Of a stretch of 64,000 bases of DNA, positions 4,488 through 46,070 are shown piece by piece. The stretch comes from a virus, in the IMG/VR virus record IMGVR_UViG_3300021356_000017, positions 1 to 64,000 of that record, one strand, 5' to 3'. Every line of letters starts with the position of its first letter. Position 1 is the stretch's first letter. Below the pieces are notes generated by a model, which did not search any database, was not told the origin of the DNA, and saw only the letters and a list, made by a program, of their open reading frames with translations. Made by a program: the position numbers and the translations under genes.

Positions 4488-4510
4488 TAAAGAGAAGGGA
4501 GATGAATATT
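4474..4510 (+). promoter_or_regulatory. promoter with TATA-like box before the clamp loader
   Basis: ACTATTTAAACTGATAAAG is followed by a purine-rich GGGAGATGA stretch. The TTTAAA at 4478-4483 fits an archaeal TATA box. The same 19-base core recurs at 15460-15478 ahead of another replication gene, with almost the same distance to the start codon (27 and 26 bases). That spacing would put the transcript start at or next to the ATG, so the message may be leaderless or nearly so. This is an inference from sequence repetition, not a mapped start. Confidence 0.65.
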
Positions 4511-23564: not shown

Positions 23565-23900
23565 TCAGCAATTCCATCGCTTCAAGGCCGCACCCTTTGG
23601 AGTTAATTTACCCTTCTTTGAAGTCGGTCCTTTGACCCCACTCATACGAGCGCAGAATGACTTTCGCCTCTTTGCCTTCTTTGAGCCGGGTTTGAGTTTA
23701 CTTGGTTTTGTAGTGACTGGTGGTTTTAGATTTGCACCAGTCTTTCTTTTTGCCGCCGCACGACCTTTAGCACTTAGTCCACCTTTTTTGTGATGCTTAT
23801 TAGGATTGTAGCCGTGGAATGGCTTTTTACTCTTCGCTTTCATCAAAGCAAAAGCATTTTCCATTGGAGTACAACAGTCACAAAAATCGTATTCTATCAT
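23565..23900 (-). CDS. DUF6321-like basic protein, 111 aa
   Basis: The pattern GGLSAKGR, then NLKPPVT, then KPGSKKAKRRKSFCARM, GVKGP and a final KRWNC is that of the DUF6321 family of small phage proteins. Those are common in marine phages; no function is established. The protein is very basic and probably binds nucleic acid. An N-terminal CDCC may add a metal site. It overlaps the giant gene by four bases. Confidence 0.8.
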   Translation of the reverse strand: MIEYDFCDCCTPMENAFALMKAKSKKPFHGYNPNKHHKKGGLSAKGRAAAKRKTGANLKPPVTTKPSKLKPGSKKAKRRKSFCARMSGVKGPTSKKGKLTPKGAALKRWNC

Positions 23901-29900: not shown

Positions 29901-32900
29901 GCTGTTCCAGCGAACTTGATTGCATCACTAGCAGACACGCTTTGACCTGTTTTAGATACAACAGTCAACCAATCACCAGTAGCCTTGATACCATCACGGT
30001 CATGCTTTGCTATTAGAGCAAGTTCACCTTCGTATGATACCACTACGAATCCACGAGAGAATACACCTTGAGGATGATGTAGTGAGCGTGTGACATTATC
30101 TGTGCTACGCAAGTGAATCGGCTTTGTACCGTATGTTATACCGGTAGCACTGTAAGCACCGTATGTCAAATCCCAGTCGCTAGGTGTTGAAGTATCGTTA
30201 TAATCCCAATCGTAAGGTGTTGTAATGAGTGTATCATTACCGTCTACGCTGGTAATTGGACCAAGTGATTCGGGTGTTAATTTCATTGGTGCAATGTGTG
30301 GTAGGTGTCCAAATGTACTCATAGCAGAAGAAGCAGAACCGTATGGGCTGAATCCAAGTTTAGGATACCATGCACCTAGACCAGCACCATATCCTTCTGT
30401 ACCTACTCTCAAGGAGTTGAGGTATGAGTATCTTTCACCAGCCCATCCTACTGCGCCTGCTGGTCTTGTACGGTCAATTGCATCTACAAGTCCATTGAAG
30501 TGAACTTGTGTCATGTGCTTTCTAGTACTGTCATTATAGTTGTTGTAATAGTGTACACCAGCCTTACTCCATACGAATACCTTAGTTGGTGGTGTAGTGA
30601 CTGGATTAGGGAAGGTTAAGGTAGCACCGCCCGATTGAGTGTAAAATGTTGTTACATCTTCCATCAAAGCCATACCGCTAATTCTATTTGGCGCAAGCCA
30701 AAATCGTACAGCCCATCTTGAATTACCGCTATCGTAGAATACATCACGAGAATGATACGGACCGTACATTGGTGTATCGTTAGAATCTATTGGGTTTCTA
30801 CCACCTTTATCTGTTCTAATCCATCCACTAGCGGGTATTTGCTCATGGGTGTCCTGCGTAGCACCACTAATGTATGCCTCAACATAATTTTTGGAATTGA
30901 CAGTACTAATAATATTCCCACCATCGGGTGCTACACCGCTATTTTGTTGATATACTACAAAGGTCATTTCAACCCAGCCATATCTATCTTGTCTCATTGA
31001 GTTACCCATACTCGGTGCGAATGTACCACCCATTGCTTTGAGTGCGCCTTTACCGGGATTCTCGTTAATTGCTTGTCCGATTATGGTAGCCAACTCTTCA
31101 CCGTTTTGACATCGTGTACCATCGACAACAATTACTTCACGATTAAAGTTCGCAGAAGTTTCAGCCGATGCACCGAGAATCATTGTTTTGGCTAATACAC
31201 CCGATACACGGAATGCGGTAGGGTTGACATCGTTATTTATCTTAGCAACCCTATAATCGCCATTCTCCACTGGTGCATTGAATGATAACTGATTATCAAG
31301 CCAAGAACCGCCCGGATGATAACCACCATCCATGTGATATGTCATATCAGCAGACATCGCCACTCCATAATATGCAACAGTACAATGTTGTAGAGGATGC
31401 GCTCTTTTGTATTCACCTATATTTCCTGCCGTAATGTTACTTGCTGACCTGCTGTTGAAATGCTCACCATAATGATAACCATGAGCAGGTCCTTGTGCTA
31501 GACCGTAAAAATGTGGACCGCCGGAATTACCACTTGGTATACCCTCCGCTGGCGACCAGTTGAATGTAGTATTCCAGTGATTGTCGTGAATATTAGTTTG
31601 ATATGTGCTACTCGGTGGTCCGTATTGTCCATCACTATTCTTAATATCGTTAGGTAGGTTTTCACCGTATGGTACTTTACTCCATGAGTTACCAGTGGTG
31701 ACAACATAACCCGGATGTGGTTCAACTGCCGCATCTGCATCTGTCGTTTCGGTGAACGGGAATGCTTGACCCGGACCATATATTGCATATGTAGTGAAAT
31801 AATCTACACTGTTTTTGTGGTCGGTGTATCTAGCAGTTTGGTGAGGGAATCTAATCACCATCGGTATAGAGCGTTGTTGTACTATACCGGCAGTGTATCT
31901 AGCAGAAACATGCGCTGGTGTAGTTGTGTGTTTAGTATGTGTACCTCTATCTACATCCGGTGACAAGATACTGTCTTTGTTATATGCTGGTGAATGAATA
32001 CTACCTCTATGCTGATTTAACATAGCAGTGCCGGGGAAGAACGCTAGTAGTGCGTTACAATCTAAGATAGCATAAGATGTGCTTATTTCGTTTGCATTCT
32101 GTATACCAGCAGTACCAGTTGGTCCTTTGGAATATGGATGGGTATAGAAATCGGAGTAGTCATTTTGTGAGCCATCGTTAACATCGAGTACAACACCGCT
32201 GAATCCACCTCCAAAGTATAGCGGTACACCGTGGTCGTTGCTATCTCTACCACCTCTAAAGTAAGTGATAGGCTCACTTTCTACGCTACCGTAATAACGC
32301 ATACCACTAAATATTTTATTACCGTGAAGCATCAATAAACCATCTGTATTTGACGATGAAGAACCATATTCTGCTACAAATTGAGCATTTCCGTCTACAT
32401 CGTATGCACAAAGTTTTGTTGTAGAATCACCAGCAGTGTTATTATTTTCAGTCTCCATTAGTGCGAACTTATTCTCTTTATGCCAAATAATTCTTCTTTC
32501 GCTAAAGGAACTTAATCTTGCATTACCGTCTACATTACTATATTCGGAGGCTGGTACTAACAGGTGGGTATTCTTTTCACCAGTTTTTAATGTAAATGTG
32601 CCTTTTCCGCTACTATGATGATGTGAAGCATAAATTACCATTGGGTTTTCTAATAAAGGTAAAATGTGGTCGCCAGTCTTTGAAGTATAATCTAAACCTT
32701 TCAATCCGTTTGCCCATTTTGTGGTAGAAACAGGGTCATTATATGAGTCAACAAGCACTGGTGTTGCTGTATTGGTGTGGTAGCCTCTACTCTTTGTTCT
32801 AATTTGTATGACTGTATTTGGTATGTATCCACAATCAATGCTTCTGTGTGCGTCTAAATCCGCATCGCTAGTAGGTTTATTCCATGCTTCACTCGCTGTG

Positions 32901-35900
32901 ATAACCCAAGAATCATTGTTACGCTCATCTAATTTTTCATATTCCCCATACTCAAGATGTGGTGCTTCTATACCTAAATCGGGATGGACACTAGCAGAAA
33001 ACATCGTAGAAAGCGGTCTTACTCCTTTTTGTGGATTGATTGCTCTTATCTTAATAGCATCAGCCGCTACTCCCCATTCACCAAATGTACGACCATCAGC
33101 ACAATACATATCTCTACAATCAAATGAAATACCATCTTCTTGATTAGGGTCAGCGAGATTGATTGCCTCGGCTGTGACTGCCGCTAATAGTTCATCAGTA
33201 ACTAAAGTAGTCCAATTCAATCTAGGAGTAATTATACCAGCAATGGTTACATCGGTAGATGCATGGAACATTGTAGATGTGCTATCAGTTAAAGTGGCGG
33301 CAGAAGTGTCTATATTGTTCAAACTATGTGACACTGTAAATGAATCAGCCTCTACTCCAAAGAATGCATGTAAATTGCTACCACTAACACCTCCAAAAGA
33401 CTGTCCAGCAGTATTAGTTTGTGTTCTAGTTCGATAAGAAAAAACATTTCCAACACTTCCTTTGGCTGTTGTAACAGTGTTTTCAAATGGGTCAGTGAGT
33501 TGCACAATACCGTTTTCTTTAGGGAATCCCATGTAACCCAATACATCGGGATGGTTGCCTAGTTCCTGTCCACTATCGTAAGGTGCTTCTAATTTAACAT
33601 ACAGAATTTTAGCACTTGCATCATAGAATAACCCACACGCTATACCAGCATCGGGAGCATATACACCTCGCCACCTATTACCTCTCCAACTATTTTCACT
33701 CATCTTAGAAGTATTAATTTCTAATCTCCCAGTTGCATCTCCATACCCAAGCATGTGTTGTCCTATGGTAAAACCGCCCAAACTAACATCTTTATCGTCA
33801 AAGAATATACATACTTCATCTTCAATTGTTGATGGTATTGTAGTCAAATCATTAGCAAACTTAGTGCCTATTTCTTTGTAAATATACCTTATACCGTAAC
33901 CTTGTCCACGATGGTCGGTAAATCTAAATCCGTATAACGGAGTAGCACCTATACTAGTGTCTTCTACATCCGTAGCCTTTACATGACCCGAATATGCTAA
34001 AACATCAGTAGGAGCAGTTTGTCCTTTCTGTGTAGCCTCACTATACCTAACATCGAAATGTCTGTCACCTTTTCTTCCTAAGCCGTGTTGCCCGGCTACT
34101 GGTGAAAAGCCGGGTACACCACTGGCTACTAAACCACCAAAGTTGATTCTAGCGGCGGCTGTGCTACCTGCTCTTAATCCGTTAGATAGTGTGGTGGATG
34201 GACTTTGAGCCTCAAATGACTCATCATTAACCGTATTCTGTGATATACCACCAAGTCTTGCTGATATGTTTCTTTCAATAGGATTAGCAGTATCGCTCAT
34301 TCTTGTTCCTACATCGTGGTTACTGACTAACACTTCATTAGGTTCTTCTTGTGGAGTAAGTTCTCTTAGTGTTGTGACTGGGGCGAATGGTCTACCGTGT
34401 TTGTTTAGAGGCATCGGTGCAGGGTGCATGTTTTCACCAAGCACTTCATCCGGCTGACACCAAAAGTTTCGGAATCTTCCACCATGACCGATTAAGAATT
34501 GTGGTTGATAAGACGATTGACCCTTGCTGTTGTCTAGCCATACTGCAAAGTTTCTACCACTCGCACCCGGTATGGTGGAATGTATAACGATAGAGAATCC
34601 TTCTGTACCGTTGATGTCTTCTACAACTCTACCAATGTGCGCTCTAACATAGCCCATATGACTACCCCTATCGTGGGTATCAAACGCAATCTGCTCATAC
34701 CAAAACGGTGCAGGGTCGTATGTGGAACCAGTAGCGGCAAAATCAGCATTTATGTGAGGTGAGGTAGGGTCTTTCTCACTATTAGCACTGTCTCTTCTTA
34801 CACCTATTCTTGTTAAGTCGAGTTTTTCACTTTCACCCGGATACTGATGTGATGGTCTTCTAGCGTGTGTACGACCATTGAGTGCGCTACCTTGATTGAT
34901 GATTCTCACCATCTCACGAGCCGCCGCTTCAATGTCTGTTACACCTTCTTTTACACCAACCTCTCCTAAGTCAATTGTCATCCTTCTAACGAAGTCCATC
35001 TGTGTCCAATGCTTTAGATGTTGTAACCTCGATTCATCATGGTCTGCTAAGTCAAGTGTAACATTTCTTTTACCCTTTAAACAAAGGAAAGCGGATATAA
35101 CACGAGTTCCATCCGGTGTATCGAATGCTGTGCTACCATCTCTTAATGAATGAGTAGCAGGATTTTGACTTGCCCTGTGGCTCTTTAAAGCCTTGAGTAA
35201 TAAGTTACCAGTACTCTCTTTTCTTACAAGCGAATGTAATGCATTAGCATGGTATATTGATGCTACCGCTGGCTGTACACGAGGAAGAGTACTGTCACCC
35301 ACTGTATGTGTATCGCTAGTTTCTTCATGATACAGTCCAGTATGTACAAAATGACCGTGACCTCTACCCATTTTGTGTGGGTTGTTACCTAGTGTTAGCG
35401 GGTTAGCGAGAGTATATTTGTTCTGTGCGCTCAAAGAAAGACCAGTCAAATCATCGGATATACTGTTCGGTATATCATGAGCATACGCACTCTCTATGAA
35501 TTTAGATTGTTGAGTAGAACGCAAGAACCTATTCTCGGATGGGAATCCGTTTGCTACATCTATCTGTGTTGACAAGTAGTGAGGCGCACCACCGTTGACT
35601 TGCATCAATATTTTGTCTAGTTTTTCTGTACCACCATCGTATGTGATGTCACGAGTAAAACCAATTGTAGGAGTAGCGGCACTGGATTGTACCTGCATGT
35701 GTATGTCATGGAAAGCAATGAACTCTCGGTCATGTCCTACATCATACAAGAGAACTCTAGCATGTCCTTCTGTTGCCATATATGGGTCAACATATGCTAT
35801 TACTGGTGCTTGCGATGCGGTCAATCCCATTGCTTCATAATTCATCTCAATAGTCTTGTTCACATGCTGTGCAAAGTTTTGTGCTGTCTCAAGACAGGAA

Positions 35901-38900
35901 TCACCAATCAAGAAATTCTCTAGTGGTATAGAGTCACGAGGTCTGTTAGCCAGTGTACCTACGCCGCCGTTGAAGCCTTTCCATACCAATGCCTCATTGA
36001 AAACTCCACGAGATTTAGCGAATAAACCCTCTACTGCATGTGGGTTATTGAGAGTCATGTTCATCCATACAGTATCACCATTTCTCAAACCTCCTTGAGC
36101 ATAGGGATAATACCAAGAGCGATTCAATAATGCATCATGGTCGTCTTCTACAACTGAAAATGTTCCTACTCTAATCTTCCAGCCGGATGTAATAGCGTTA
36201 ACCACATTGCCTGTAAGAGTAATTTTCGTATTATTAGTAGCAAGTTGTAGGTTAGATTCTACTTTTGACACCTCTCCTACATATGCTATGGTAGTGCCGT
36301 CATCGGAGAATATTTTGTCACCTTTTCTTATGTTAACACCGATGCTATTTGCCGTACCTACTCTATTATTACCAGCATTTGTAATTTCAACCACACTGAC
36401 GCTCGTAGCATAAGAAGCGGCGTATGTCCACTGTTCAGCCGATGTGGAGGGTAAGAATGTACACGAGTCTAATTCTTCTTGTGTAAGTGCGTAAGTTGCA
36501 CTAAAACCGGAGTTGTGACCTGCTCTTTTCAAGGTAATTTCTTCACCTATAATGGAAAGACTTGCACCGGGATAAACTAATACTTGTATTGTATTATCAC
36601 CGTCAAAAGAATTTAATTTACCTTGATAATAAACTTCTTTTGTTGTACCACCGCTTTGAGTTATTTCAGCAATATAGATTAAATCACCTTGTTCAAAAGT
36701 GATATTATTGCTAGAATCTCTTGAGTATGGTACATCGGGGAAGTTACTAGCATCTTCAAGCACGATGTTGTACGATTGTCCTGCACCACTTACTGCTGAT
36801 TCTGCTACATCTACAATTCTACTTGTCGCTCTACGAGTCTGCGTTCTAGGTGCATGTGGATTTGCTAGAGGTCCAGCCTTGAACTCTACTGCACTAACAT
36901 ATTGCCTTAGTCCGTAGTCGAGATTACCACCTTGAGTCATCACATTCGCCGCATCAAAGTAATTAGGTGAGCGACCCTCGAAATCGGATGACGGAGATTC
37001 TACATCGGATGCAAGAGGTAGCAATGTTTCATTTCTAAAACCATGCGCTAAGTATATCTTAGAACCAATAGTTGCTTGCTGTTTGAACAGTTCAGTATAT
37101 CCATCATGATGACCACCAGTTGCAGTTTTAGGTATGTTAATGAAACCAGCAGTGGCGGGGGCATTATCATATACAGCCCAAGCACCACTACCCAAGAATA
37201 CACGGCGTAACCTGTTGATACCTTTCAAATTCAAAAATTCATCAGTAACACTTGCATCGGGGAACATTTTAGGATGTGACACATAAATTTTCCACTGGTC
37301 TGTCTCATCAACTACTTCTGTTATCGTAGCGGAATTAACATGGTTTTGATTATTGATTAAATAAGAATGCGCTGAGTCCTTTGTTTTGTCTGCAACACCA
37401 ATGTCATCGGGTCTTCTCCCTACTGGTGTAGGATTCCATGTCTGTGCGGTGTATGTAGCGTCAATGTGCAACTTCATACTGTTATCCGGTCCGGGGAATA
37501 TACCGAGTTCTGTATGGTCGAAGAACTGTTGTGGGAATACAGGTATCTCTACCATAGCACGAGTACTTGCGAACTGTGTACCAAGTTGATAGTCGTGGGT
37601 TACAGTGTCAAGAGATTGGAACAATCTGTCATTGACGGTGCTTCCATCTTGCGCTAGAGAATCATTACCAAAGTCACCATCGTTGAATACATTAGTAGAT
37701 ATTTGGTATGAGCCAGCAGACGATTGACTGTATATACCAACAGCGTTACACCAAGCGTGGAATGTAGAATATGCCGTACCAGCACCATCTACAAATGTAC
37801 GATTAGCGAGTGCATCTGTTTCACTAAACAAGAACCCAGCACCTAACTTAGAATCGTACTCAGCACTAGCACCGCTATCTAGGTAGATTCTACCTTTCTT
37901 GGGGAAGCATATAGTACCCCAAGATGCAAGGTCGGGGCTACCATTATTCAGCGGTTTTACACTCATGCTCTTTGTTCCAGTATTAGTCTTGACAGAAACA
38001 GCCTGCACAGCGCACTGCCTCCTTGTAGAACCCGGCAATCTCATCAGTGGGCTAGGGTCGAAGGTAGGCTTGGTATTCATCGCACCTTGACCTACACCGC
38101 CGAGTGTGACGGTAACAACTGGTGCGTTAGGTTCTATCTCCTTGACAATGTGAGAGTCGGGTGAACCGCTACCAATACCACTTACATTCTCATTAACGAA
38201 ACTCTCCGCTATACCAGTAGCGACTACTGTTGTGGAGGATGAGTTATCAGCAGGACTGTCTGTACTCTTTACGCCTCTTATCCTACATCTACTCATCAAG
38301 TACATGATGCTGGCAATATTTGGATTATCGCCATCACCACTTACTCTAATTTGAGATAATTGATTAGTCCTTAATTTATTTGAGGGCTGTATATACAAGT
38401 CACCCAATACGCCTTCTTCATCGTCAATAATTATATTGTCAATAATGTCAAACATCTCGAATGCTCTCATAGAACTAGTAGGGCTGATGTCAAACTCAGC
38501 GGTAGCAGACTTCTCAGTAATTGGGTTAACGACTTCTATACCACCAGTTGTAGTTGTAGTGTCGTCTGCCGTACTACTGTTTGGCTCAATACATACCTTA
38601 TGGTATACAGACGGGTGCTTGCCAGTATTATGCGACCTCTTGATAGGCTTAGGAGGACTTGCTGGTTCTGCATCAGTACTCGCTGGCGGAGTGTATAGAG
38701 CAGGTGTTTTACTGTAATCTAACTCAATGTCATAGTCATCACCACCAGTGTTGTCTCCAATCAACTCATGTGACTCGCTGAATAAAGAACCATACCCGCT
38801 TATCGCTTCTTCAATGGTTATCTTACCACCCGGAGAATACAGTGTGGTATTTGCTAAATCGGAAGTGATTACATCAATGACTCTTGTAGAACCAGTAACA

Positions 38901-40876
38901 ATTAGATTACCAGCAGGTACGGTCTTTTCAACCATCAACATAGGATTAGAAACACCCATGCTTGCACCAGTCAAGTCAATTGCATTGTAATGTATCTCTA
39001 CGAATGGTGCAAAGTCGTATGATGATGATAGTGCAGGTACATGCAATAACGCTACCCTACTTTCTGTTTCGGGAATCAAGTGATACAATCTAGTATCTGC
39101 ATTGATGGCTTCCTCGGCTGGTACAGGTCCTTTCAAGAAAAACGGTGAGAAATCAAAATTACTACCACCGATGGCAATCAATTCTTTCTTTGCCGCAGGT
39201 AGTCCATTGTTGATGATTGAGTTAACAGGTGACGAATTAGTTAGCCTTAGAATAGGTGACTCAAGAGTTTCAGTGTAAAAATCAATGAGTGAGTTCATCA
39301 CAAACATTTCATCAATATGTCTTGTAGACCCATCGTATGACATCTGTACAATGTCTGCGCTACCGTCTGCTTGTTGGTCTACTGTAAGGTCGCTAGGTTT
39401 AGGGAATCTTCGCATGTACTCATGCCCAGTAATATGAGAAAACATGTGTCTACCACTGTGTCCTACTTGGAACAGGGTGTCTAGTGTAGAAGGCCACTGT
39501 ACTGCAAAAGGATTGTTAGTGTCGGTAGTAGTGGTAGCCATGCGGCTAGAATATACAAGACCGTGGTTTTCAATGTCACTTTCATCAATTACCATTTGTC
39601 CGGTCTTATCGAATATCTGTGTACCGTAATGTGGTGGTTGATATGGCTTACCTGTACCGTTGTCTATCAGTAAGTCAGCCCCTACCACTACGAAATAGTT
39701 GTCAACATCAGTTGTACGAGAATGTAGAAAACCTCTCAATCCATTAGTTCCATTGATGAAATCTATGTGTATACTCGATATTGTGATAACACCAGTGCTA
39801 CCGTTGATGCTGTGAACTCTAACTCTCTCCGGCGGTTTTTGATTTGGCTTGTGTGTATTCCTGTTTATCGCACCGGGATTGATTAGAAGATTATACGGAG
39901 TATGTGCTACTGAAATAGTTGCCGCAGTACCCGGTGTAGAATAGTAGTCTACAACTTTGTATTTACCTGTGCTATACGGCGTTGCAGTGAAATCAGTGGT
40001 AGGAGATGAAGAATCATACGCTTTACCTGTGAGTCTAGCAATCAACTCTTGAGCATCACTGGCACTGACAGTCATAGTAGTTGTTGTACCATCTGCACTG
40101 GCTGAGAATGCAGTGAATGAGTATGATTTGTCAACGACATCTATCGGCTCTTCAAATCTAAACAATGCTTTACTTTCACTACTTTTTACGGGTATGGAAG
40201 GGTCAAGCATGTTTTCATCTCTTTGATTTGAGATGTGTATTGCCTCGATAGCCCCTCTAAATTCTCCACCTTTACCACCGAGATAAACAGGCGTAGTAGA
40301 CCTAGCCAGTGTTAATTCATCGTTAATCAGTTTCTCGGCTACGGTTTCACCGTTTACCGCAATGAATATTCTTGCATCTGCAACTCCCGCCACAACATGG
40401 TATAGTGGTCTATTGTTGAAGTTTAGATTAGTAGCATCACCATAGTTAGTAGTATCATATCGGTTGTAAGAATCGTGTACACCGCCGAAATCTTGAGGTG
40501 GATATACAACACCATCCCATCTTGTAGTAGCGTTAGTAGCAGTGCTAATAACATCCACAGAAGGACCAGCGATTGATTCAAGATATACTGTCAGTTTAGC
40601 AGGACCGGGTGTATCTACTGTACCAAACTCTAAGGTAAATTGGTTATCTCTATGAGCAATAACACCACCACAGTCGGGTACTACCCATGTTTCTATAACA
40701 AAATCAGTAGTTTCTTTATCGTTAATCGAAACAATATCTCCACTACCTTGTAGCGTGGAAGTCATGTGTTTACCTTCTTTAGAACCAGTAGATGTGAATC
40801 TACCTTGTGGTATAATGACAGAATCGCTAACGCCATCAAAAAAGAAGGCGTTACTGCTTCTACCTATTGCTACCAT
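23897..40876 (-). CDS. giant virion protein, 5,659 aa
   Basis: One unbroken frame of 17 kb encodes a protein of roughly 600 kDa. The first 250 residues (TTDFVIETWVVPDCGG, then IFIAVNGETV and YLGGKGGEF) look like a LamG/concanavalin lectin domain. Another jelly-roll-like stretch lies near residues 4285-4400 (GGAFSLMFETKVRYDG). Small beta-sandwich modules with xTITVDDARGF or VGMTVTGTGIP patterns appear near the C-terminal end. The composition is Gly, Ser, Thr, Asn and His rich, with no signal peptide and no membrane segment. It lies between tail protein and hub genes, so it is probably a tail-associated surface fibre or adhesin. Exact function unknown. Confidence 0.85.
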   Translation of the reverse strand: MVAIGRSSNAFFFDGVSDSVIIPQGRFTSTGSKEGKHMTSTLQGSGDIVSINDKETTDFVIETWVVPDCGGVIAHRDNQFTLEFGTVDTPGPAKLTVYLESIAGPSVDVISTATNATTRWDGVVYPPQDFGGVHDSYNRYDTTNYGDATNLNFNNRPLYHVVAGVADARIFIAVNGETVAEKLINDELTLARSTTPVYLGGKGGEFRGAIEAIHISNQRDENMLDPSIPVKSSESKALFRFEEPIDVVDKSYSFTAFSASADGTTTTMTVSASDAQELIARLTGKAYDSSSPTTDFTATPYSTGKYKVVDYYSTPGTAATISVAHTPYNLLINPGAINRNTHKPNQKPPERVRVHSINGSTGVITISSIHIDFINGTNGLRGFLHSRTTDVDNYFVVVGADLLIDNGTGKPYQPPHYGTQIFDKTGQMVIDESDIENHGLVYSSRMATTTTDTNNPFAVQWPSTLDTLFQVGHSGRHMFSHITGHEYMRRFPKPSDLTVDQQADGSADIVQMSYDGSTRHIDEMFVMNSLIDFYTETLESPILRLTNSSPVNSIINNGLPAAKKELIAIGGSNFDFSPFFLKGPVPAEEAINADTRLYHLIPETESRVALLHVPALSSSYDFAPFVEIHYNAIDLTGASMGVSNPMLMVEKTVPAGNLIVTGSTRVIDVITSDLANTTLYSPGGKITIEEAISGYGSLFSESHELIGDNTGGDDYDIELDYSKTPALYTPPASTDAEPASPPKPIKRSHNTGKHPSVYHKVCIEPNSSTADDTTTTTGGIEVVNPITEKSATAEFDISPTSSMRAFEMFDIIDNIIIDDEEGVLGDLYIQPSNKLRTNQLSQIRVSGDGDNPNIASIMYLMSRCRIRGVKSTDSPADNSSSTTVVATGIAESFVNENVSGIGSGSPDSHIVKEIEPNAPVVTVTLGGVGQGAMNTKPTFDPSPLMRLPGSTRRQCAVQAVSVKTNTGTKSMSVKPLNNGSPDLASWGTICFPKKGRIYLDSGASAEYDSKLGAGFLFSETDALANRTFVDGAGTAYSTFHAWCNAVGIYSQSSAGSYQISTNVFNDGDFGNDSLAQDGSTVNDRLFQSLDTVTHDYQLGTQFASTRAMVEIPVFPQQFFDHTELGIFPGPDNSMKLHIDATYTAQTWNPTPVGRRPDDIGVADKTKDSAHSYLINNQNHVNSATITEVVDETDQWKIYVSHPKMFPDASVTDEFLNLKGINRLRRVFLGSGAWAVYDNAPATAGFINIPKTATGGHHDGYTELFKQQATIGSKIYLAHGFRNETLLPLASDVESPSSDFEGRSPNYFDAANVMTQGGNLDYGLRQYVSAVEFKAGPLANPHAPRTQTRRATSRIVDVAESAVSGAGQSYNIVLEDASNFPDVPYSRDSSNNITFEQGDLIYIAEITQSGGTTKEVYYQGKLNSFDGDNTIQVLVYPGASLSIIGEEITLKRAGHNSGFSATYALTQEELDSCTFLPSTSAEQWTYAASYATSVSVVEITNAGNNRVGTANSIGVNIRKGDKIFSDDGTTIAYVGEVSKVESNLQLATNNTKITLTGNVVNAITSGWKIRVGTFSVVEDDHDALLNRSWYYPYAQGGLRNGDTVWMNMTLNNPHAVEGLFAKSRGVFNEALVWKGFNGGVGTLANRPRDSIPLENFLIGDSCLETAQNFAQHVNKTIEMNYEAMGLTASQAPVIAYVDPYMATEGHARVLLYDVGHDREFIAFHDIHMQVQSSAATPTIGFTRDITYDGGTEKLDKILMQVNGGAPHYLSTQIDVANGFPSENRFLRSTQQSKFIESAYAHDIPNSISDDLTGLSLSAQNKYTLANPLTLGNNPHKMGRGHGHFVHTGLYHEETSDTHTVGDSTLPRVQPAVASIYHANALHSLVRKESTGNLLLKALKSHRASQNPATHSLRDGSTAFDTPDGTRVISAFLCLKGKRNVTLDLADHDESRLQHLKHWTQMDFVRRMTIDLGEVGVKEGVTDIEAAAREMVRIINQGSALNGRTHARRPSHQYPGESEKLDLTRIGVRRDSANSEKDPTSPHINADFAATGSTYDPAPFWYEQIAFDTHDRGSHMGYVRAHIGRVVEDINGTEGFSIVIHSTIPGASGRNFAVWLDNSKGQSSYQPQFLIGHGGRFRNFWCQPDEVLGENMHPAPMPLNKHGRPFAPVTTLRELTPQEEPNEVLVSNHDVGTRMSDTANPIERNISARLGGISQNTVNDESFEAQSPSTTLSNGLRAGSTAAARINFGGLVASGVPGFSPVAGQHGLGRKGDRHFDVRYSEATQKGQTAPTDVLAYSGHVKATDVEDTSIGATPLYGFRFTDHRGQGYGIRYIYKEIGTKFANDLTTIPSTIEDEVCIFFDDKDVSLGGFTIGQHMLGYGDATGRLEINTSKMSENSWRGNRWRGVYAPDAGIACGLFYDASAKILYVKLEAPYDSGQELGNHPDVLGYMGFPKENGIVQLTDPFENTVTTAKGSVGNVFSYRTRTQTNTAGQSFGGVSGSNLHAFFGVEADSFTVSHSLNNIDTSAATLTDSTSTMFHASTDVTIAGIITPRLNWTTLVTDELLAAVTAEAINLADPNQEDGISFDCRDMYCADGRTFGEWGVAADAIKIRAINPQKGVRPLSTMFSASVHPDLGIEAPHLEYGEYEKLDERNNDSWVITASEAWNKPTSDADLDAHRSIDCGYIPNTVIQIRTKSRGYHTNTATPVLVDSYNDPVSTTKWANGLKGLDYTSKTGDHILPLLENPMVIYASHHHSSGKGTFTLKTGEKNTHLLVPASEYSNVDGNARLSSFSERRIIWHKENKFALMETENNNTAGDSTTKLCAYDVDGNAQFVAEYGSSSSNTDGLLMLHGNKIFSGMRYYGSVESEPITYFRGGRDSNDHGVPLYFGGGFSGVVLDVNDGSQNDYSDFYTHPYSKGPTGTAGIQNANEISTSYAILDCNALLAFFPGTAMLNQHRGSIHSPAYNKDSILSPDVDRGTHTKHTTTPAHVSARYTAGIVQQRSIPMVIRFPHQTARYTDHKNSVDYFTTYAIYGPGQAFPFTETTDADAAVEPHPGYVVTTGNSWSKVPYGENLPNDIKNSDGQYGPPSSTYQTNIHDNHWNTTFNWSPAEGIPSGNSGGPHFYGLAQGPAHGYHYGEHFNSRSASNITAGNIGEYKRAHPLQHCTVAYYGVAMSADMTYHMDGGYHPGGSWLDNQLSFNAPVENGDYRVAKINNDVNPTAFRVSGVLAKTMILGASAETSANFNREVIVVDGTRCQNGEELATIIGQAINENPGKGALKAMGGTFAPSMGNSMRQDRYGWVEMTFVVYQQNSGVAPDGGNIISTVNSKNYVEAYISGATQDTHEQIPASGWIRTDKGGRNPIDSNDTPMYGPYHSRDVFYDSGNSRWAVRFWLAPNRISGMALMEDVTTFYTQSGGATLTFPNPVTTPPTKVFVWSKAGVHYYNNYNDSTRKHMTQVHFNGLVDAIDRTRPAGAVGWAGERYSYLNSLRVGTEGYGAGLGAWYPKLGFSPYGSASSAMSTFGHLPHIAPMKLTPESLGPITSVDGNDTLITTPYDWDYNDTSTPSDWDLTYGAYSATGITYGTKPIHLRSTDNVTRSLHHPQGVFSRGFVVVSYEGELALIAKHDRDGIKATGDWLTVVSKTGQSVSASDAIKFAGTARWDERIHNASRFVAPANAGPNVEALIVDDTATPTADEPSAYTLHGSVSADTELVNAEPCFAKTGDIFFDLDESPASIFLTNDGDVERNLITDYDNSDDVWLGHTNAYKLGKRSPAKNFSVEHVVWKRMDGGNLSLPAVNARGMGSVPFITRVDSGTAYETGEKIYGINRFSFETTNSAMFPIIQAQELSHPQIAVQHPIELRNVLSIPNEEMQFAEVQVEDDTGQVHVVEGGSPFGTIVRTFNAVSDRSAEGLAPAVANSGVEPNMKVRLPDPDTIPGNIIVRSGFDRLQAYQNETMGSGGMIRPLSKDSLKHLFTDETKGPRLGGTFGDVNWEHISQSATGEAFPDPTYKGWETATGHAPLESSYELHDRTLFFHVTKCGNTHSHRYPNYYTHSAGITSNDLTAVSYSGTTLTVNANVDASLYDESIQDGRKFLRLYDPVTDRGGVASFTGISSATFIGCVGDADFAELITGDISTFKVVPSYYIPAGSTRFFASRRMRDHAEVSGNSPDMAHTQYFVGGSTELGNAVFSRPKMTPIPLPRMGHHFVNPTMAVLPGHFAHPAYQGLYNKHRAVRSATVQSDEYTIMEEQSLTNLKSDISTTLNNEINPLDGIAVIGSLNATPSGPSDIHGGAFSLMFETKVRYDGYGVLASVGTGGTNNSNGKHILSLEANATYTLNNHFPDPAEVGSYQIIIQPNIHKSQFIGFHSNGPADDLPDGTVEELTSQQVGLVVGIEYSTDRVDLILAEATMADTRGCEVFINELMIDHDPDYGSQFTNIPPLMLYNPFGVQGTESPAFVRRSLPYQPQMFIDTTPGMTTNIPWWSIAHRVGPDDSTAYGFRHLTHHKFDNYYEFIRANAGSIATQITLAGYPSTHPDVYSSILENVSVNPVCTVVSVTSTTITVDDARGFPKVPYYGNKLVYTDANGVRRTHTYTERSGLDSTNMNKPKLFTITAKSSFTSNLTAGTKLRLTRAYDSRPAFNILKDSQASMITRVLPQMLQGSRDTNSLHLADAFLCLWHPNLGRPHTFYSDASRTWLNPLTDRAINKEPLNSMPEHFETIHYHDATYYASTGPFGMERKTPHPVYKKAADVASNAVQYSSHVVATKTITVNNAFSISDGDNFILDGRVYTVNGAVSGGTTVVVDEVLPNEITSGSYILLGGDGTAATTATIIGTFTGGLSSAEYTFQGNVTGDDAGTRYTMLNMFWPCGSRGGPQVSRLDGYGFVSTSWSKPRNYNVGPVWQNDGGGIDIAGYDGDGDADDITTRPFGYRFGLRQPYNKPQWSTYGVRSFIENAVTSTNISSGYPHGPLVQQETETWTYAGGSSISNATYPNTYVGIMERQTNFSGMLGVDKYEWQVRYSEGTRFTRPFGCPVRTLRNFSTVIRDWWGDHNGKNLDMIEEAISYYLVDWWGNTRGEDVRRHPVRAFGIRPSWDAGDVYEYDRDNNRTPYARLYNNGSPVVNLKGLVDSSGDVSVSSGYNVPRFGGRLNNANNNNTDILVDVYMPTNAHRVGDDGNGRGLRYPTAFNEDILTDLDKPVHTTGVVLSHHTAEPILNDGFIRARNDVLQADEVPRGISARLNIAEDGLLKPEAVVSDRTETISGESPHKDAVSRSSPRIGLDTEYVEGVDENMIIINTEAHSLHADRNVGQRVIMQGGYTAGSQTLGNYDLSALTFAGNPQGGAMKLSHTSNFNPLGGTYIAETRNFVAPISDSGWGAFTDATCDTNHTSGLTDGSSTSVRHITMDSTAKLVVGMTVTGTGIPASATVAAINNATCFTLSADTTATNSNTTLVFGPPTGKGSNPYATSTFDSSSSQTNMVDKSIKYMMRPVRMLDKHHVEMFRPNNNLHSSAPQYGSNYFSATGGGKYGMYLYEVSNGRATGGGTYVRSTSPNANPPYAPAYVMSIGNSVTVPISKGPTIIGTAESSFDNTVLDNEITRVIMSENTLQHHRSDAPRRRSSVQGDKKQDRMDYSVKPRFSQSLHQKGHKGDVDYNSNDHSGDAS

Positions 40877-40884
40877 TTAATCAC

Positions 40885-42027
40885 CTAATAAATAAAGTCC
40901 ACAGGCACGAATTGAATAGTGTAACTGAACAGTGGTTCGCCGCCTATTTGATTGAAAGAGGCTTGGGTAATAGTTCCTTTGATACCCGTATATTTAGGTT
41001 TTGTAGCATTAAACACAGTTCCGACTGGTTCAGCGTTTGCTACTTCTTTTTCTTCTTTCAAAACACCCGGTCCAGTAGGCATGTAGAAGAGTGACGAGTT
41101 GCTGTTTACAGTAGAAGTAAATGGTATCTGTATACCAATAATGTAATCACCGTATCTACTACTTCTCCTTGCATTACCATCGGGGTTGTTATCACCACCG
41201 CCAAATATTCCTACATTTCTAAACCCAGCAAGTGATAATTTTTTTGTAACAGCGGTTGAAATTGTAAAATTATTTGAATTGTTTAATATAGCAAACAGTT
41301 CTGCTACTTTATCACCGGCGGATTTTGATTTACCTGCACTGGTTGTTTTTCCACCTGAAAATCTTTCATGTGAAACTTTTCTTTTTCTCCAACTGGAAAA
41401 GGATGGATGATTTTGATTTCCATCAGCCCCTTGATTACTCCATGTCATTTCCACAGCGGCGTTAGTGCCTCCAAATTCCGGAGTATATCTTGAAGCAGTC
41501 AAATTAGTTATGTTAGAGTTAATCAAATTCATAAGACTCAATGCTATATTTTCTTCGTCATCAAATGCATTAGTGCTAGTATTGTAAACTGAAACCCACC
41601 AATCAGTGCCACTTCCACCATGCGTAGAAGCACCTGCTCTTTTTACAAAATGCACCTTGTCGTTGTTATCATTTAGTCGTATGATAAAGTTAGATGTGGT
41701 ATATACTGATGAGTCTACAAAATCGCTACCATCGGCATCATATTGTGAAAGCCATGTTAAATCCAAATCGCCTCTTGTTCTTCCAAAATTCACTCTAGCA
41801 GAAGCCTCGGTTGCACCGGCAAGTTTTGGTAAATTATCCGAATCCGAAATTATTCCCTCAATGGAAATCAAAGCCTTTGGAAGATTGAGGTCAAAGGCAT
41901 ATCTGTTAGCACCTTTACCCGGTATAGCGTGTGGATTGATGCTTCTATCAACATTCAGTGTGATATTGGTAGCCATCAAATCAATGAGTTCTCCATCACT
42001 TCTCACTAGTCTAATAGGTGTGGACAT
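40885..42027 (-). CDS. tail protein following the tape measure
   Basis: The protein opens with IRLVRSDGELIDLMATNITLN and ends in a beta-rich segment (PLFSYTIQFVPVDFIY), with a basic insertion around residues 210-245. Its place just after the tape measure is that of a distal tail or tail-tip protein. ATG 42027 overlaps the tape-measure stop as TGATG and has GAGGTAGA about eight bases upstream. No family is recognised with confidence. Confidence 0.75.
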   Translation of the reverse strand: MSTPIRLVRSDGELIDLMATNITLNVDRSINPHAIPGKGANRYAFDLNLPKALISIEGIISDSDNLPKLAGATEASARVNFGRTRGDLDLTWLSQYDADGSDFVDSSVYTTSNFIIRLNDNNDKVHFVKRAGASTHGGSGTDWWVSVYNTSTNAFDDEENIALSLMNLINSNITNLTASRYTPEFGGTNAAVEMTWSNQGADGNQNHPSFSSWRKRKVSHERFSGGKTTSAGKSKSAGDKVAELFAILNNSNNFTISTAVTKKLSLAGFRNVGIFGGGDNNPDGNARRSSRYGDYIIGIQIPFTSTVNSNSSLFYMPTGPGVLKEEKEVANAEPVGTVFNATKPKYTGIKGTITQASFNQIGGEPLFSYTIQFVPVDFIY

Positions 42028-43031
42028 CAATATCTACCTCTCATCGTTGTTCCACCTAAGTTTCTTGCCAATTCCTGTTGTATCATGTTACCAATCTCAC
42101 GAGCGAGATTGCGCTTGTCAGTGCGGTCTGTTATACCGCTTGCATTGACAGTGATGTTGTATGTTCCTCCACCCATACCTGCACCACTTGGGTTGTTACG
42201 CTGAGTTAGAGGCACTACTGCCTCCGGTCCATCTTCACCAATCAAAGCAAGAGTAGGTTTACTCACTATACCACCCTTAGCCAGTCTTGGTATATCCGAC
42301 AATCCAGTAAGACTAGATATACTACCTATACCAAGTGGGAAGTCGAAACTTAATATGTCATTCACAGCATCAATGAGTAAGTTGATTGTATTCTTGATAG
42401 GTTGTAAAGCGGCAGTAAATGTGCTAGTTAGGCTGGTAAAGACAGTTGTTACATTGTCTAAGGCGAAGAACTCACTCAAGTTCTGCGGTATGATGTCTTT
42501 CCAATTCCAATCGGGCAAGAGTTCCTTCCAATTGAAATCTCCAATTAAAGTTCTAAAGTTGAATTTAGAACTTATTTTACCCCATGCTTCCGACATTTCA
42601 GCGGTAATTATTTGTCTAATAGTTTGGAAAGCATTAGCCGCTTTTTCTCCAATTGCTGAAAAAGTAAGGTTCTCTTTTATGAACTCACTTATTCCAATTA
42701 TCTTTTCAATTGCTTTGTCTTTGACATTTTTCCACAACACTGCTATTTTTTCTCTATAACCATCCCACATCGTGCCGATATTGGCTTTTATCTCAGCAAT
42801 TTTTTCACCAACAAATAATTGAATAGCATCCCAAACATCTGTTGCTCCTGCCTTAATACCTTCCCAAGATAAATTGTCAATAAAATCTCTAATTGGTTGA
42901 ATTACTTTATCGTTAAAATACTTCTTGAGTTGTGCGAATGCTTGCTGTGCCATTTTACCTGCTTGTACGAAACCCGGACCGATATTATTGACGAGTTGTG
43001 ACATGCTCGATAATGTGGTAATCAAACTCAT
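42027..43031 (-). CDS. short tail tape-measure protein
   Basis: The first 190 residues are amphipathic helices with regularly spaced aromatics. The C-terminus has LAKGGIVSKPTLALIGEDGP, EAVVPL and a final NITVNASGITD strand. That C-terminal block is a hallmark of tape-measure proteins. At 334 residues it is short; using the usual 1.5 angstrom per residue the tail would be about 50 nm. It follows the two tail-assembly chaperone frames, the classical order. No sheath gene is visible, so a short siphovirus-like tail is inferred. Confidence 0.85.
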   Translation of the reverse strand: MSLITTLSSMSQLVNNIGPGFVQAGKMAQQAFAQLKKYFNDKVIQPIRDFIDNLSWEGIKAGATDVWDAIQLFVGEKIAEIKANIGTMWDGYREKIAVLWKNVKDKAIEKIIGISEFIKENLTFSAIGEKAANAFQTIRQIITAEMSEAWGKISSKFNFRTLIGDFNWKELLPDWNWKDIIPQNLSEFFALDNVTTVFTSLTSTFTAALQPIKNTINLLIDAVNDILSFDFPLGIGSISSLTGLSDIPRLAKGGIVSKPTLALIGEDGPEAVVPLTQRNNPSGAGMGGGTYNITVNASGITDRTDKRNLAREIGNMIQQELARNLGGTTMRGRY

Positions 43032-43035
43032 TCTA

Positions 43036-43311
43036 TCACTCCCAATCTAAAAAACTATAATCCAGTGGTACTACTTCTCTATCGCCACTCTTTGCCTGTT
43101 GCTTCTTACGCTCTATCTCCTTATTATTTTCTTCTGTTGATACCATAGCCCATACGAGTGATTGTTTAAAGACGGCTTGAGGCATTTGATAGACTTCTAA
43201 CAAAGAAATGCTGAAATGTTTTGCGATAATGTAAGCCCAAAATTCTATTTGTGTTCCAAAATCTTCTGCACTATCGAATCTTTCTTTCTTTAGAAATCTC
43301 TCCACCCTCAA
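43036..43311 (-). CDS. tail-assembly chaperone, second frame (T-like)
   Basis: This frame has no ATG near its start; the first usable codon is TTG at 43311, overlapping the stop of the preceding frame. It is open upstream in the -1 frame through the G6 run at 43329-43334. The protein is helical (EFWAYIIAKHFSISLLEVYQ) and acidic-basic mixed. Position between tail tube and tape measure, together with the frame relation, fits the T part of a G-GT pair. It would be made mainly as a fusion of about 213 residues with the upstream frame. Confidence 0.7.
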   Translation of the reverse strand: MRVERFLKKERFDSAEDFGTQIEFWAYIIAKHFSISLLEVYQMPQAVFKQSLVWAMVSTEENNKEIERKKQQAKSGDREVVPLDYSFLDWE

Positions 43312-43676
43312 GCGGTCTGCTTCGTAAACCCCCCTTGAAGAGCCTCCGCCATGTCGTTTGGTTGTGGTAAAATCTTACTGATTTGTTCACCGACATAACC
43401 TTTCAAACTCAACAACTCATCTGTTGTCAGTTTAGGATTTGTATCTGTAATCCAATTGGAGAATGCAAATTCCCAGTACCCTGCTAAGTCTAATTCAACA
43501 TCGCCTTTTTCAACTCTAATCATTCGTTGTGCGGCGGCTTGGATGTCGAGAAACGATATATCTCTCACCCAAATCTCGATGACCTCAGCATCCTCATTCG
43601 GTGCTATCGGTATCGTGTGTTTCGTCTGCTGGTCGTTCTTCAATAACAGGTTCTTGTTCGCTACTACTTTGCTCAT
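43308..43676 (-). CDS. tail-assembly chaperone, first frame (G-like)
   Basis: ATG 43676 follows GGAGAGG at a good distance and is preferred over the TTG at 43691. The 122-residue product (AEVIEIWVRDISFLDIQAAA, then a helical part) is the size of phage G-type chaperones, which bind the tape measure while the tail grows. It ends just after the G6 slip site. The 5' part overlaps the SAP-domain gene by about 80 bases in another frame. Confidence 0.7.
   Translation of the reverse strand: MSKVVANKNLLLKNDQQTKHTIPIAPNEDAEVIEIWVRDISFLDIQAAAQRMIRVEKGDVELDLAGYWEFAFSNWITDTNPKLTTDELLSLKGYVGEQISKILPQPNDMAEALQGGFTKQTA
43329..43334 (-). other. candidate -1 frameshift site (six-G run)
   Basis: On the minus strand the end of the first chaperone frame reads CAA GGG GGG TTT. 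A tRNA on the second GGG can slip back one base and still pair fully. The -1 frame then continues GTT TAC GAA without a stop into the downstream frame. Frameshifting at this place in tail-chaperone genes is a general feature of long-tailed phages. The site here is a homopolymer, not a classical two-tRNA heptamer. Confidence 0.55.
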
Positions 43677-44190
43677 CTTGTTCCTCTCCAATGGATGCGG
43701 CTACCTCTTTGGTAGGGGCTTCCGAGTCATCTTCAAGGGCTACCTCTTCAGTAGGGCTATCCGATTCCTCAGTGGAATTGATACCTTCATCATTTTGCTT
43801 TAATCGCAAAATAATCTCGGCTTTTGTACCGTATACTGGTAGACCTCTTTCTTTACAAATATCTCTCAGTTCTGCTACGGTTAGTGAATCATACATCTGT
43901 AATTCTTGAGGGAATGGGTTATCGCTTACAGGTGCGACAACTAGAGGCTCTTCTTCGACCTCTTCCTCAACCACTTCTTCGACCACTTCTTCTACTACTT
44001 CTTCGACTGGCTCTTCCACTACTTCCTCAACTATCTCTACTGGTTTTAATTTCTCAGCAATTAAAGCATGAGTAGCGTGAATATCTAGTGCAGTGAATTC
44101 TTCTGTGTGTTCTATTCCGTTAACACTACAAGCCCATACAGCATAGTCTTCTGCTCCAAGTCTGCGGTATTTGTTTAGTGATGTCTTCAT
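43594..44190 (-). CDS. SAP-domain protein with Glu-Val repeat
   Basis: ATG 44190 follows GAGGGATTTT and is preferred over the TTG 12 bases earlier. Residues about 50-80 are a low-complexity VEEVVEEPVEEVVEE repeat. After it comes SLTVAELRDICKERGLPVYG and TKAEIILRLKQ, a typical SAP helix-extension-helix. The C-terminal 90 residues are acidic and disordered-looking. SAP domains usually bind DNA; here it sits between the tail tube and chaperone genes, so a virion or assembly role is possible. Confidence 0.75.
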   Translation of the reverse strand: MKTSLNKYRRLGAEDYAVWACSVNGIEHTEEFTALDIHATHALIAEKLKPVEIVEEVVEEPVEEVVEEVVEEVVEEEVEEEPLVVAPVSDNPFPQELQMYDSLTVAELRDICKERGLPVYGTKAEIILRLKQNDEGINSTEESDSPTEEVALEDDSEAPTKEVAASIGEEQDEQSSSEQEPVIEERPADETHDTDSTE

Positions 44191-44198
44191 AAAATCCC

Positions 44199-46070
44199 TC
44201 AATATTTGATGATTGTATCTCTTGCGATAACCTTGATTGTTTTAGGCATAATTTTGAGAACTGATTTGACAACACCTTTGTCTTCCGGTATTTGTAGTGG
44301 TGCTTCGATGATTATGTAATCATCAATGATAAGCATCATTCGCTCGGTGTGACCGCTACCACTAGTTGTTGTCTTCTCAAAGTTGATACGAATTTGATTG
44401 TCAGTGTTACCGTCAGCGTTAGTGCTAAAGTCCTCAGCAGACCTCATCTTGTGATAGAACAACGGGTCATCTACTGCAATCTCCATAGTCATCTCGTAGG
44501 TTGTTTGTCCTTCTACCATTAGAGAAGTGTTACGAGAACCACCAAACGGAACTCTTTCAGTAGCACTACTTTGACTGTTTTGACCGTTGATAACATGGAA
44601 TCCTTGCATACCAGTTTGTCCTGTCAGTGTGAAGTTTAGTACCTGTGCAACTTGCACACCAGTCATGTTAATTGTACCATTGTAGAACATGAACGGTTTT
44701 TGTGTTTTCGCACCAATACCCGAAATCAAACGCTTTGGGCTAGTGTTTGCTGTATCATCAAACATTCGGTGTGCGGCATAATTAGATGCACCACCATTCA
44801 AACGCCCTGTGTCGGTGTAACACAAAGCGGAATTGAAATTGACTGCTAATCTAAGTGCGGCATCATTGTCAGTAGACATTGTAAAATCAGTAACTTTGCA
44901 CCCACGGAATACACGAGTCAACTCTTTGGAGTCAGTTGCACCACCATCTGTGCCACCTTCATTAGAGTCAATATCTCGCCTACGCTGTGACACTTCAAGA
45001 GAGAAGGAAGGCTGGTGAGTATGTGTGAAAAGTAAATGGGTTTGTGAGTTTGTAATAACAGCCGCATCACTGATAGCAGGAGCATTAGTGTTAGGGTCAT
45101 CATAGTCTCTTAGATATACATGCTCACCGCTTTCATGTGGGAAAAGAAGTGGTTCATCCAAATAGATGCGTGTACCATTTACACCAACTATACGGCGAGC
45201 CTCGTGCTTGTTAGCCTTGTTGAAATTCGTTTCTGTGAAGTTGCCGCCCCATGTGTTACCATCTGCTTCGTGTGTTGTCACAATAGGCACAGCCACGGCT
45301 TCTTCGATAATAACAAATTTATTGATAGCAAAACTGGTTGCAGAAGCCACAGTAATGAAAGATTGTCCAGCCTCAGTTGCCGCACTTAGCGTTGTGGGAG
45401 AAGGTGAGGAAGGTGCGCTACCATCCTCTACAACTTCTCCACCAAGACAGTATTTTAGCCATCTTGCACTGTGCATTGCTAGTTCAAAAGAACCGCCTTC
45501 TGTGATGAATTTGCCCGGTACTTGTATCGAAGTATCTCTACCAAGTCCGACCACATGGAATCTCTTCAAATCTACTTTAGTTTCGGGTAGTGTCAAAGCG
45601 TTTGTTATACCCAAGAATTGGTCCGTCAGTACAGATTCACTGCTACCAGTGAAATTCATGTCTGCATTAAGCGGAGGGGTTTTGTAAGGAAGAATGTGAA
45701 TATCGGTTTTATTATTGATAGCAGTTGAATTAGCAGTAAAGGTTTGTGGGGCAATTTTTAGCGTAGTTCCTTCATTAGATACAATGGTAAACTCCCTGCT
45801 CATGTCTTTGCTATCCATGTTGGTTGAGGCTGAATTTTCCGTAAAACGAATTTTTGAACCTACGAGCAAACCGGAAGGATACTTCAATTTGTCATTGGAA
45901 TCAAATAACACAGTGTTGACTCGTGAGGTAAATGCAATTGTGGAATAGTCATCACCAGCAGTTTTAGTAATCGTAGCAGTAACATCAGTTCCACCCGGAG
46001 TGATTATCATCCCTGTTTCGGATGCAAACGATACTTCTGCTAAATCTCCCTTATACACTGTGCTTGGCAT
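44199..46070 (-). CDS. major tail tube protein
   Basis: This 623-residue protein is larger than usual tube proteins (200-350). The C-terminal part (TYEMTMEIAVDDPLFYHKM, then IIDDYIIIEAPLQIPEDKG) looks like a tube barrel. A central insertion (QSFITVASATSFAINKFVII) resembles a small surface beta domain. Ribosome-binding site GAGGTGA stands before ATG 46070, one of the best in the late arm, fitting an abundant protein. Its place between neck genes and chaperones supports the call. No sheath partner is seen. Confidence 0.65.
   Translation of the reverse strand: MPSTVYKGDLAEVSFASETGMIITPGGTDVTATITKTAGDDYSTIAFTSRVNTVLFDSNDKLKYPSGLLVGSKIRFTENSASTNMDSKDMSREFTIVSNEGTTLKIAPQTFTANSTAINNKTDIHILPYKTPPLNADMNFTGSSESVLTDQFLGITNALTLPETKVDLKRFHVVGLGRDTSIQVPGKFITEGGSFELAMHSARWLKYCLGGEVVEDGSAPSSPSPTTLSAATEAGQSFITVASATSFAINKFVIIEEAVAVPIVTTHEADGNTWGGNFTETNFNKANKHEARRIVGVNGTRIYLDEPLLFPHESGEHVYLRDYDDPNTNAPAISDAAVITNSQTHLLFTHTHQPSFSLEVSQRRRDIDSNEGGTDGGATDSKELTRVFRGCKVTDFTMSTDNDAALRLAVNFNSALCYTDTGRLNGGASNYAAHRMFDDTANTSPKRLISGIGAKTQKPFMFYNGTINMTGVQVAQVLNFTLTGQTGMQGFHVINGQNSQSSATERVPFGGSRNTSLMVEGQTTYEMTMEIAVDDPLFYHKMRSAEDFSTNADGNTDNQIRINFEKTTTSGSGHTERMMLIIDDYIIIEAPLQIPEDKGVVKSVLKIMPKTIKVIARDTIIKY

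Follow-up and report, generated by a model that had tools for sequence, protein, structure and literature searches.

A near-fixed run of G residues as the probable site of −1 ribosomal frameshifting in tail chaperone genes of a marine lineage of probably archaeal viruses

Introduction

The tail genes of a virus in the IMG/VR collection raise the question of how a reading frame that opens without an ATG comes to be translated. The stretch of DNA analyzed, referred to here as the window, comprises 64,000 nucleotides (positions 1 to 64,000 of record IMGVR_UViG_3300021356_000017) from a source virus record of 64,777 bases with a G + C content of 42%. An original prediction, made from the letters of the sequence, proposed that a −1 frameshift at a run of six G residues joins two short frames, G and T, into a fusion protein that would correspond to GT of lambda-like tails. 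In phage lambda, G and GT precede the tape measure and the slippery sequence is GGGAAAG. Lambda-type G/GT systems consist of a short protein and its −1 extension, with a shift near the end of G and a product ratio that matters for tail assembly (PMC5009743); the window differs from them in having GGG_GGG_TTT rather than an X_XXZ_ZZN heptamer.

Frameshifted tail chaperones are already known, those of haloarchaeal viruses included, and −1 sites have been listed for HVTV-1 and for HCTV-1, -2, and -5 (PMC5009743, PMC8211752). For the archaea as a whole, a 2021 review counts one studied −1 frameshift in an archaeal gene, along with reports from a few haloviruses (PMC8211752). Comparison of the window with its relatives points to −1 ribosomal frameshifting at the G run, yielding a 122-aa G protein and a 213-aa G–T fusion, and we give this reading a probability of roughly 0.92.

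Gene order and identity of the chaperone frames

The gene order on the minus strand is tail tube, SAP-domain gene, G, T in the −1 frame, and tape measure, similar to that of HCTV-5, in which tail tube, chaperone, joined chaperone, and tape measure follow one another. G (43308..43676, minus strand), a tail assembly chaperone of 122 aa supported by family alignments, starts with an ATG at 43676, next to a likely ribosome site recognized from its sequence, GGAGAGG (43683..43689, minus strand), and ends with a TGA at 43308-43310. The −1 extension T comprises 97 aa (43036..43329, minus strand), counted from GTT, the first codon after the proposed shift, to the stop at 43036-43038. It is followed by the tail tape-measure protein (42027..43031, minus strand; PHROG 1535, E 1.1e-17). 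Upstream of G is the SAP-domain gene (43594..44202, minus strand; PF02037, E 5.4e-13), which shares 83 nt (43594-43676) with the start of G in a different frame, and before it the tail tube protein (44199..46070, minus strand), assigned from a PF18906 match of 24.7 bits, below the cut-off of 27, and from the order of genes as in HCTV-5. G and T thus occupy the position of a G/GT pair, between tail tube and tape measure genes, with the proviso that the tail-tube match falls short of the Pfam cut-off. A single 5659-aa open reading frame (23897-40876, minus strand), which takes up over a quarter of the window, adjoins the tail genes.

The window's G protein belongs to no Pfam or PHROG family, and PF16459 (Phage_TAC_13) was matched by one of 20 family members, at E 0.011. 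The predicted fold of G (AlphaFold, pLDDT 79.7) matches the tail assembly chaperone of Haloarcula hispanica tailed virus 2 (HHTV-2) with a Foldseek E of 1.2e-5 and a TM of 0.66 in BFVD; against PDB, Foldseek gave nothing better than E 3.7 for the same model. Neither the G nor the T profile matched PDB, and a search of 50,697 phage records with the fusion protein gave no match. The chaperone label relies on the position of the gene, the relation of the two frames, and the fold. The order of the genes and the predicted fold together fit the suggested correspondence to GT of lambda-like tails. By sequence, the match of G to HHTV-2 gene 47 (L259:1110-1568) scored only 6.6%; GenBank calls this gene ‘hypothetical’, and its length fits the UniProt tail assembly chaperone match. 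HHTV-2 genes 47 and 48 are annotated as separate genes, without a join.

Frame geometry in the window

The 3′ end of G reads ATG GCG GAG GCT CTT CAA GGG GGG TTT ACG AAG CAG ACC GCT TGA. Its six-G run (43329..43334, minus strand) makes up codons 115-116 and stands in phase as CAA GGG GGG TTT, and TTT begins 18 nt upstream of the 0-frame stop TGA (43308..43310, minus strand). The open stretch of the −1 frame reaches back 67 nt from the end of this TGA and forward to the stop at 43036, with 90 codons beyond the TGA, and the coordinates therefore confirm that the −1 frame runs open from the site into T. Reading with a shift of −1 in the run gives a G–T fusion of 213 aa, the length that had been estimated.

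The claim that the second frame has no ATG holds for the start of T, and does not hold for its interior, where ATGs are present, the first of them 125 nt past the TGA. A TTG (43311) overlaps the TGA, with the G run ending 17 nt 5′ of it and no good ribosome site; the good ATG and ribosome site that would speak for an independent T are not there. Runs of at least six G or C occur at two places in the 64 kb (7887 and 43329). Across 16 window genes, GGG accounts for 40 of 965 glycine codons and GGG GGG for none of 107 Gly-Gly pairs, which argues that the site is no accident of codon usage.

The proposed slip core is G_GGG_TTT (43326..43332, minus strand), on which the glycyl-tRNA of codon 116 would move back by one base. 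Neither it nor A_GGG_GGG conforms to the canonical X_XXZ_ZZN, since each fails on one side. Full pairing after a slip on GGG was also claimed; this is correct for one tRNA and not for the Phe codon in the A site, which cannot re-pair (TTT to GTT).

Conservation and turnover of the site among relatives

Relatives were pooled from five viral-contig scans and the window, giving 253 sequences that reduced to 94 distinct ones, with L001 (the window) and L095 (HVTV-1) excluded; many pooled loci are one contig retrieved repeatedly. Four of the scans contributed the best 80 of 83, 184, 148, and 164 relatives, and the most divergent members may thus be absent. One scan of genome contigs gave no relative; six stretches fitted a pattern and none was confirmed.

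The −1 relation of the two frames, exact in the window, is exact in all 94 distinct sequences as well, and among the matches listed there is no in-frame G–T fusion in any of the 94. In every one of them, 18, 21, or 24 nt separate the start of TTT from the stop of G. T is conserved from its first codons, ahead of the G stop, with V or F in 94/94 followed by Y in 93/94.

GGG GGG TTT occupies codons 115-117 in 72/94, preceded by CAA (48), TCA (10), CAG (8), TCG (3), or GCA (3). The other 22 have GGG GGT TTT (9), GGG or GGA GAT TTT (11), or one of two single variants, GGA AAT TTT (L185) and GCG GGG TTT (L182). It had been argued that a run interrupted in relatives keeping both frames would refute the prediction. 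Formally this is the case in these 22/94, but at this codon pair most of them retain another sequence recognizably prone to −1 slippage, which suggests that it is frameshifting and not the homopolymer that is kept; the variants are informative because other known slippery forms replace the G run. A canonical X_XXZ_ZZN heptamer is found at codons 116-117 in 10/94 (G_GGT_TTT in nine, A_AAT_TTT in one), and G_GGG_GGN at codons 115-116 in 15/94. The GAT TTT variants (11/94) leave T_TTT, on which the Phe tRNA alone can re-pair and which is among the better tetramers in E. coli tests (PMC4066793). The codon pair GGN TTT is found at 116-117 in 82/94. Among 51 representatives the class of site switched at least seven times and the frame relation was never lost.

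Selection on the G run and on an upstream GGAGG

The G run is under selection at synonymous positions. On the 94-tip tree, third-base changes number four at Gly115 and five at Gly116, compared with 18, 17, 24, and 21 at Gly58, Gly66, Gly93, and Gly96, and GGG makes up 86/93 of the codons at Gly115 and 73/82 at Gly116 vs 53/428 at the other glycine codons of G. The run is thus held where other glycine codons vary freely, as would be expected if it were conserved against drifting synonymous positions, and along with the frame relation in 94/94 this supports the proposal that a frameshift joins the two chaperone frames. Phe117 is TTT in 94/94, with no changes vs 9, 9, and 15 at Phe42, 53, and 72; this evidence is weaker than that of the glycines, as the Tyr codon read in the −1 frame partly dictates TTT. 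The glycines are cleaner in this respect, since codon 115 precedes the shift and has no coding role in −1.

Selection on synonymous positions also acts on a Shine-Dalgarno-like (SD-like) GGAGG (43343..43347, minus strand), a proposed 5′ stimulator placed 10 nt before G_GGG_TTT and supported by codon bias and duplex energy. Codon 110 (Ala) is GCG in 50/66, compared with 14/263 at Ala48, 49, and 71, and codon 111 (Glu) is GAG in 67/73, so that the two codons produce GCGGAGG. Predicted pairing with the 3′ end of 16S rRNA has a minimum at GGAGG, with a mean of about −7 kcal/mol over the 51 representatives; only the G run itself has a deeper one. SD-like elements sit 9-14 nt before −1 sites (PMC5009743), a range that includes the spacing seen here. 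In the window's clade, a shift would probably be helped by pairing between GGAGG and the 16S rRNA 3′ end.

Structure downstream of the site

In sliding 70-nt folds, the excess of stability over shuffles is greatest just past TTT, at about −5.4 kcal/mol, with values mostly between 0.9 and −1.7 elsewhere. It comes mainly from clade II (18 representatives), in which a two-part stem begins about 6 nt after TTT. The stem was defined from single-sequence folds, pair counts with controls, and a ribosum alifold. The stem shows covariation: seven of its 19 pairs are altered on both sides, and the count of cells is 20 vs 8.9 in shuffles; the ‘further pair types’ measure did not go beyond shuffles (113/500). 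The ribosum alifold of clade II gives −23.6 kcal/mol vs −6.0 (sd 2.2) in column shuffles, and default RNAalifold returned no structure in clade II or clade I. In clade I, the window's clade, an alignment of 29 sequences has no consensus structure, and the window has no predicted 3′ structure (MFE −8.9, z −0.2). In clade II, a stem-loop would probably assist the shift.

A trade-off between SD strength and the 3′ stem was considered (Spearman −0.50, p 2e-4) and was lost in tree-corrected contrasts (r −0.12, p 0.39). The opposition of the two is essentially a difference between the two clades.

A model for frameshifting

In the mechanism proposed here, most ribosomes would read G to the TGA and release the 122-aa chaperone. 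In a minority, the glycyl-tRNA on the second GGG, with TTT as the next codon, would slip back by one base, from GGG to GGG. The ribosome would then read GTT TAC and go on in the T frame to give the 213-aa G–T fusion. As in phage lambda, the ratio of G to G–T would set the assembly of the tail on its tape measure. The 5′ aid in the window's clade would be the pairing of GGAGG with the 16S rRNA 3′ end, 10 nt before G_GGG_TTT, and in clade II the 3′ aid would be the stem-loop that starts about 6 nt after TTT.

The identity of the slipping tRNA is suggested by L182, whose GCG GGG TTT retains only G_GGG_TTT and so points to the tRNA on codon 116. Tests in E. coli weigh against such a site: heptamers made of G alone shift poorly there, and G_GG.G_GG.U without a stimulator had the lowest value measured, 0.018% (PMC4066793). 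The more specific proposal, that viruses of this marine, probably archaeal lineage use −1 slippage of a single glycyl-tRNA on GGG_GGG_TTT with clade-specific stimulators (SD-like element or stem-loop), is offered tentatively, at somewhat under even odds.

Alternative explanations

Different processes could account for two frames arranged in this way. In a variant of the model above, the slip might involve two glycyl-tRNAs in tandem, on A_GGG_GGG or G_GGG_GGG, and not the tRNA of codon 116 alone. A GGG codon in the A site would re-pair fully and, in 11 of the 72 sequences with GGG GGG TTT, a seventh G in front completes the heptamer G_GGG_GGG. In the other 61, however, the preceding base is A and the first tRNA would face AGG. 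Gln at the site is CAA in 55/77, much as elsewhere (66/94, 74/92, and 51/68), and such ordinary codon choice gives no sign of selection for seven G residues. L182 has GCG GGG TTT, and the SD-like element stands 10 nt from G_GGG_TTT, a distance inside the 9-14 nt range (PMC5009743), but 7 nt from A_GGG_GGG. We regard this form of slippage as unlikely, though far from negligible, and every process outside ribosomal slippage as much less probable. Among the latter is restart of translation, in which ribosomes that terminate on G would reinitiate at a GTG, TTG, or ATG overlapping the stop and make a separate T protein. G-rich sequence can serve as an SD (PMC4066793), and one of the three codons overlaps the G stop in 73/94, but any TGA stop (78/94) forces an xTG codon there. 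No start is found at the overlap in 21/94 (11/51 representatives), 16 of them with TAG or TAA stops and five with CTG. Of these 21, 19 could first start 23-29 codons into T and L177 at its codon 12; the part of T ahead of those later starts is conserved. L185, with its GGA AAT TTT site (A_AAT_TTT, 4337-4345), has no ATG, GTG, or TTG in T and is the natural case that speaks most cleanly against restart. The TTG of the window follows the end of the G run by 17 nt, which is too far for an SD. Restart therefore seems very improbable.

Slippage at the G run could also occur in transcription, with the polymerase adding one G in the run of six so that some mRNAs encode the fusion by ordinary decoding. 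A homopolymer of six or seven G residues is present in 72/94, and for the G6 form the DNA alone does not separate this process from ribosomal slippage. For a polymerase to slip, however, runs of 6-7 are short, and GGG GGG is broken in 22/94 with the −1 relation kept, including forms such as GGA GAT TTT and GCG GGG TTT whose runs do not exceed four G residues. Furthermore, an SD-like element and a 3′ stem-loop are stimulators of ribosomes. Turnover among classes of site agrees with slippage of the ribosome at a single codon pair and hardly with slippage of a polymerase, to which we give slightly less credit than to restart. The least probable explanation, with next to no weight, is an error of sequencing or assembly, or a decayed fusion gene. 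Homopolymers are error-prone, but an identical frame break recurs in 94 distinct sequences from many IMG/VR contigs, and the lack of any in-frame fusion among them argues against such an error; both G and T are conserved at the protein level. Ribosomal frameshifting thus remains the preferred reading.

Comparison with known frameshift systems

HVTV-1 and HCTV-5 (Druskaviridae) have an annotated joined tail assembly chaperone at G_GGA_AAG, a heptamer with Lys as its second codon, unlike the site in the window, with GGAGG 10 nt ahead of it; their G proteins are identical and count as one observation. A weak profile match links G to HVTV-1 gp129 (34% probability), the best of 27 HVTV-1 proteins. 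Its score is 27.7; none of 100 shuffles exceeded 26.5, and the HVTV-1 protein ranked next scored 20.7. The weak alignment sets GGG TTT opposite GGA AAG. These findings support homology of G and gp129, short of proof, and T has no similarity to T of HVTV-1. In HVTV-1, GGAGG stands exactly 10 nt before the annotated G_GGA_AAG (L095:21860-21890), a spacing identical to that in the window. In HCTV-1 (L256:14150-14175), whose chaperone looks unrelated, a G-rich AGGGGAG is placed 8 nt before G_GGA_AAC.

Actinophage-type GGGGGAA and the ‘six’ class of PRFect are likewise G-rich, non-canonical sites in tail chaperone genes (PMC10885494). The actinophage-type sites belong to bacterial phages of high GC, whereas the window has 42% GC and rare GGG and comes from a probably archaeal virus. 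The −1 sites of E. coli dnaX and of IS elements share with the window an SD-like element 9-14 nt upstream (PMC5009743); dnaX adds a 3′ stem-loop, in contrast to the window with no predicted 3′ structure. Foldseek weakly matches the fold of G to FS-gp41 of the phage Mu gp41/FS-gp41 pair (E 0.067), but Mu shifts −2 (PMC5009743) and the window's relatives are all −1.

Virus lineage and significance

The window's MCP matches archaeal-virus records only (9/9) and is 34-36% identical to those of HVTV-1 and HCTV-5. Archaeal-type genes are also present, namely a family B DNA polymerase gene (PolB, 8661-11063), an AAA clamp-loader-like gene (4502-5452), and a TCP-1/cpn60 chaperonin gene (17489-19006, plus strand; Pfam PF00118, E 4.7e-127). 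By MCP and gene content, the virus is probably archaeal and appears magrovirus-like. By analogy with the magrovirus literature, its host may be a member of the Poseidoniales (PMC10160649). A search of open-access literature found no frameshift described for magroviruses; PMC10160649 has no mention of one, and in PMC8651126 the word occurs in a reference title only. What appears new is the marine lineage, the near-fixed non-canonical G-run site, and the turnover of slippery sequences. The function would be an ordinary one, frameshifting of a tail chaperone, at an unusual and strongly selected site.

With natural variation of the site in 94 distinct sequences, rules of slippage in archaea become directly testable. 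G_GGG_TTT can be compared with G_GGT_TTT, GAT_TTT, and A_AAT_TTT, and stimulation by an SD-like element with that by a stem-loop. There is also a consequence for annotation: if the shift is not taken into account, T of these marine viruses will be missed or given a false start. If single-tRNA slippage on the G run is true, archaeal rules of slippage would differ from bacterial ones, as such codons are among the poorest shifters in E. coli, and the GGAGG-N10-G_GGN layout held in common with HVTV-1 would mean that the signal predates the split between marine and haloarchaeal tailed viruses.
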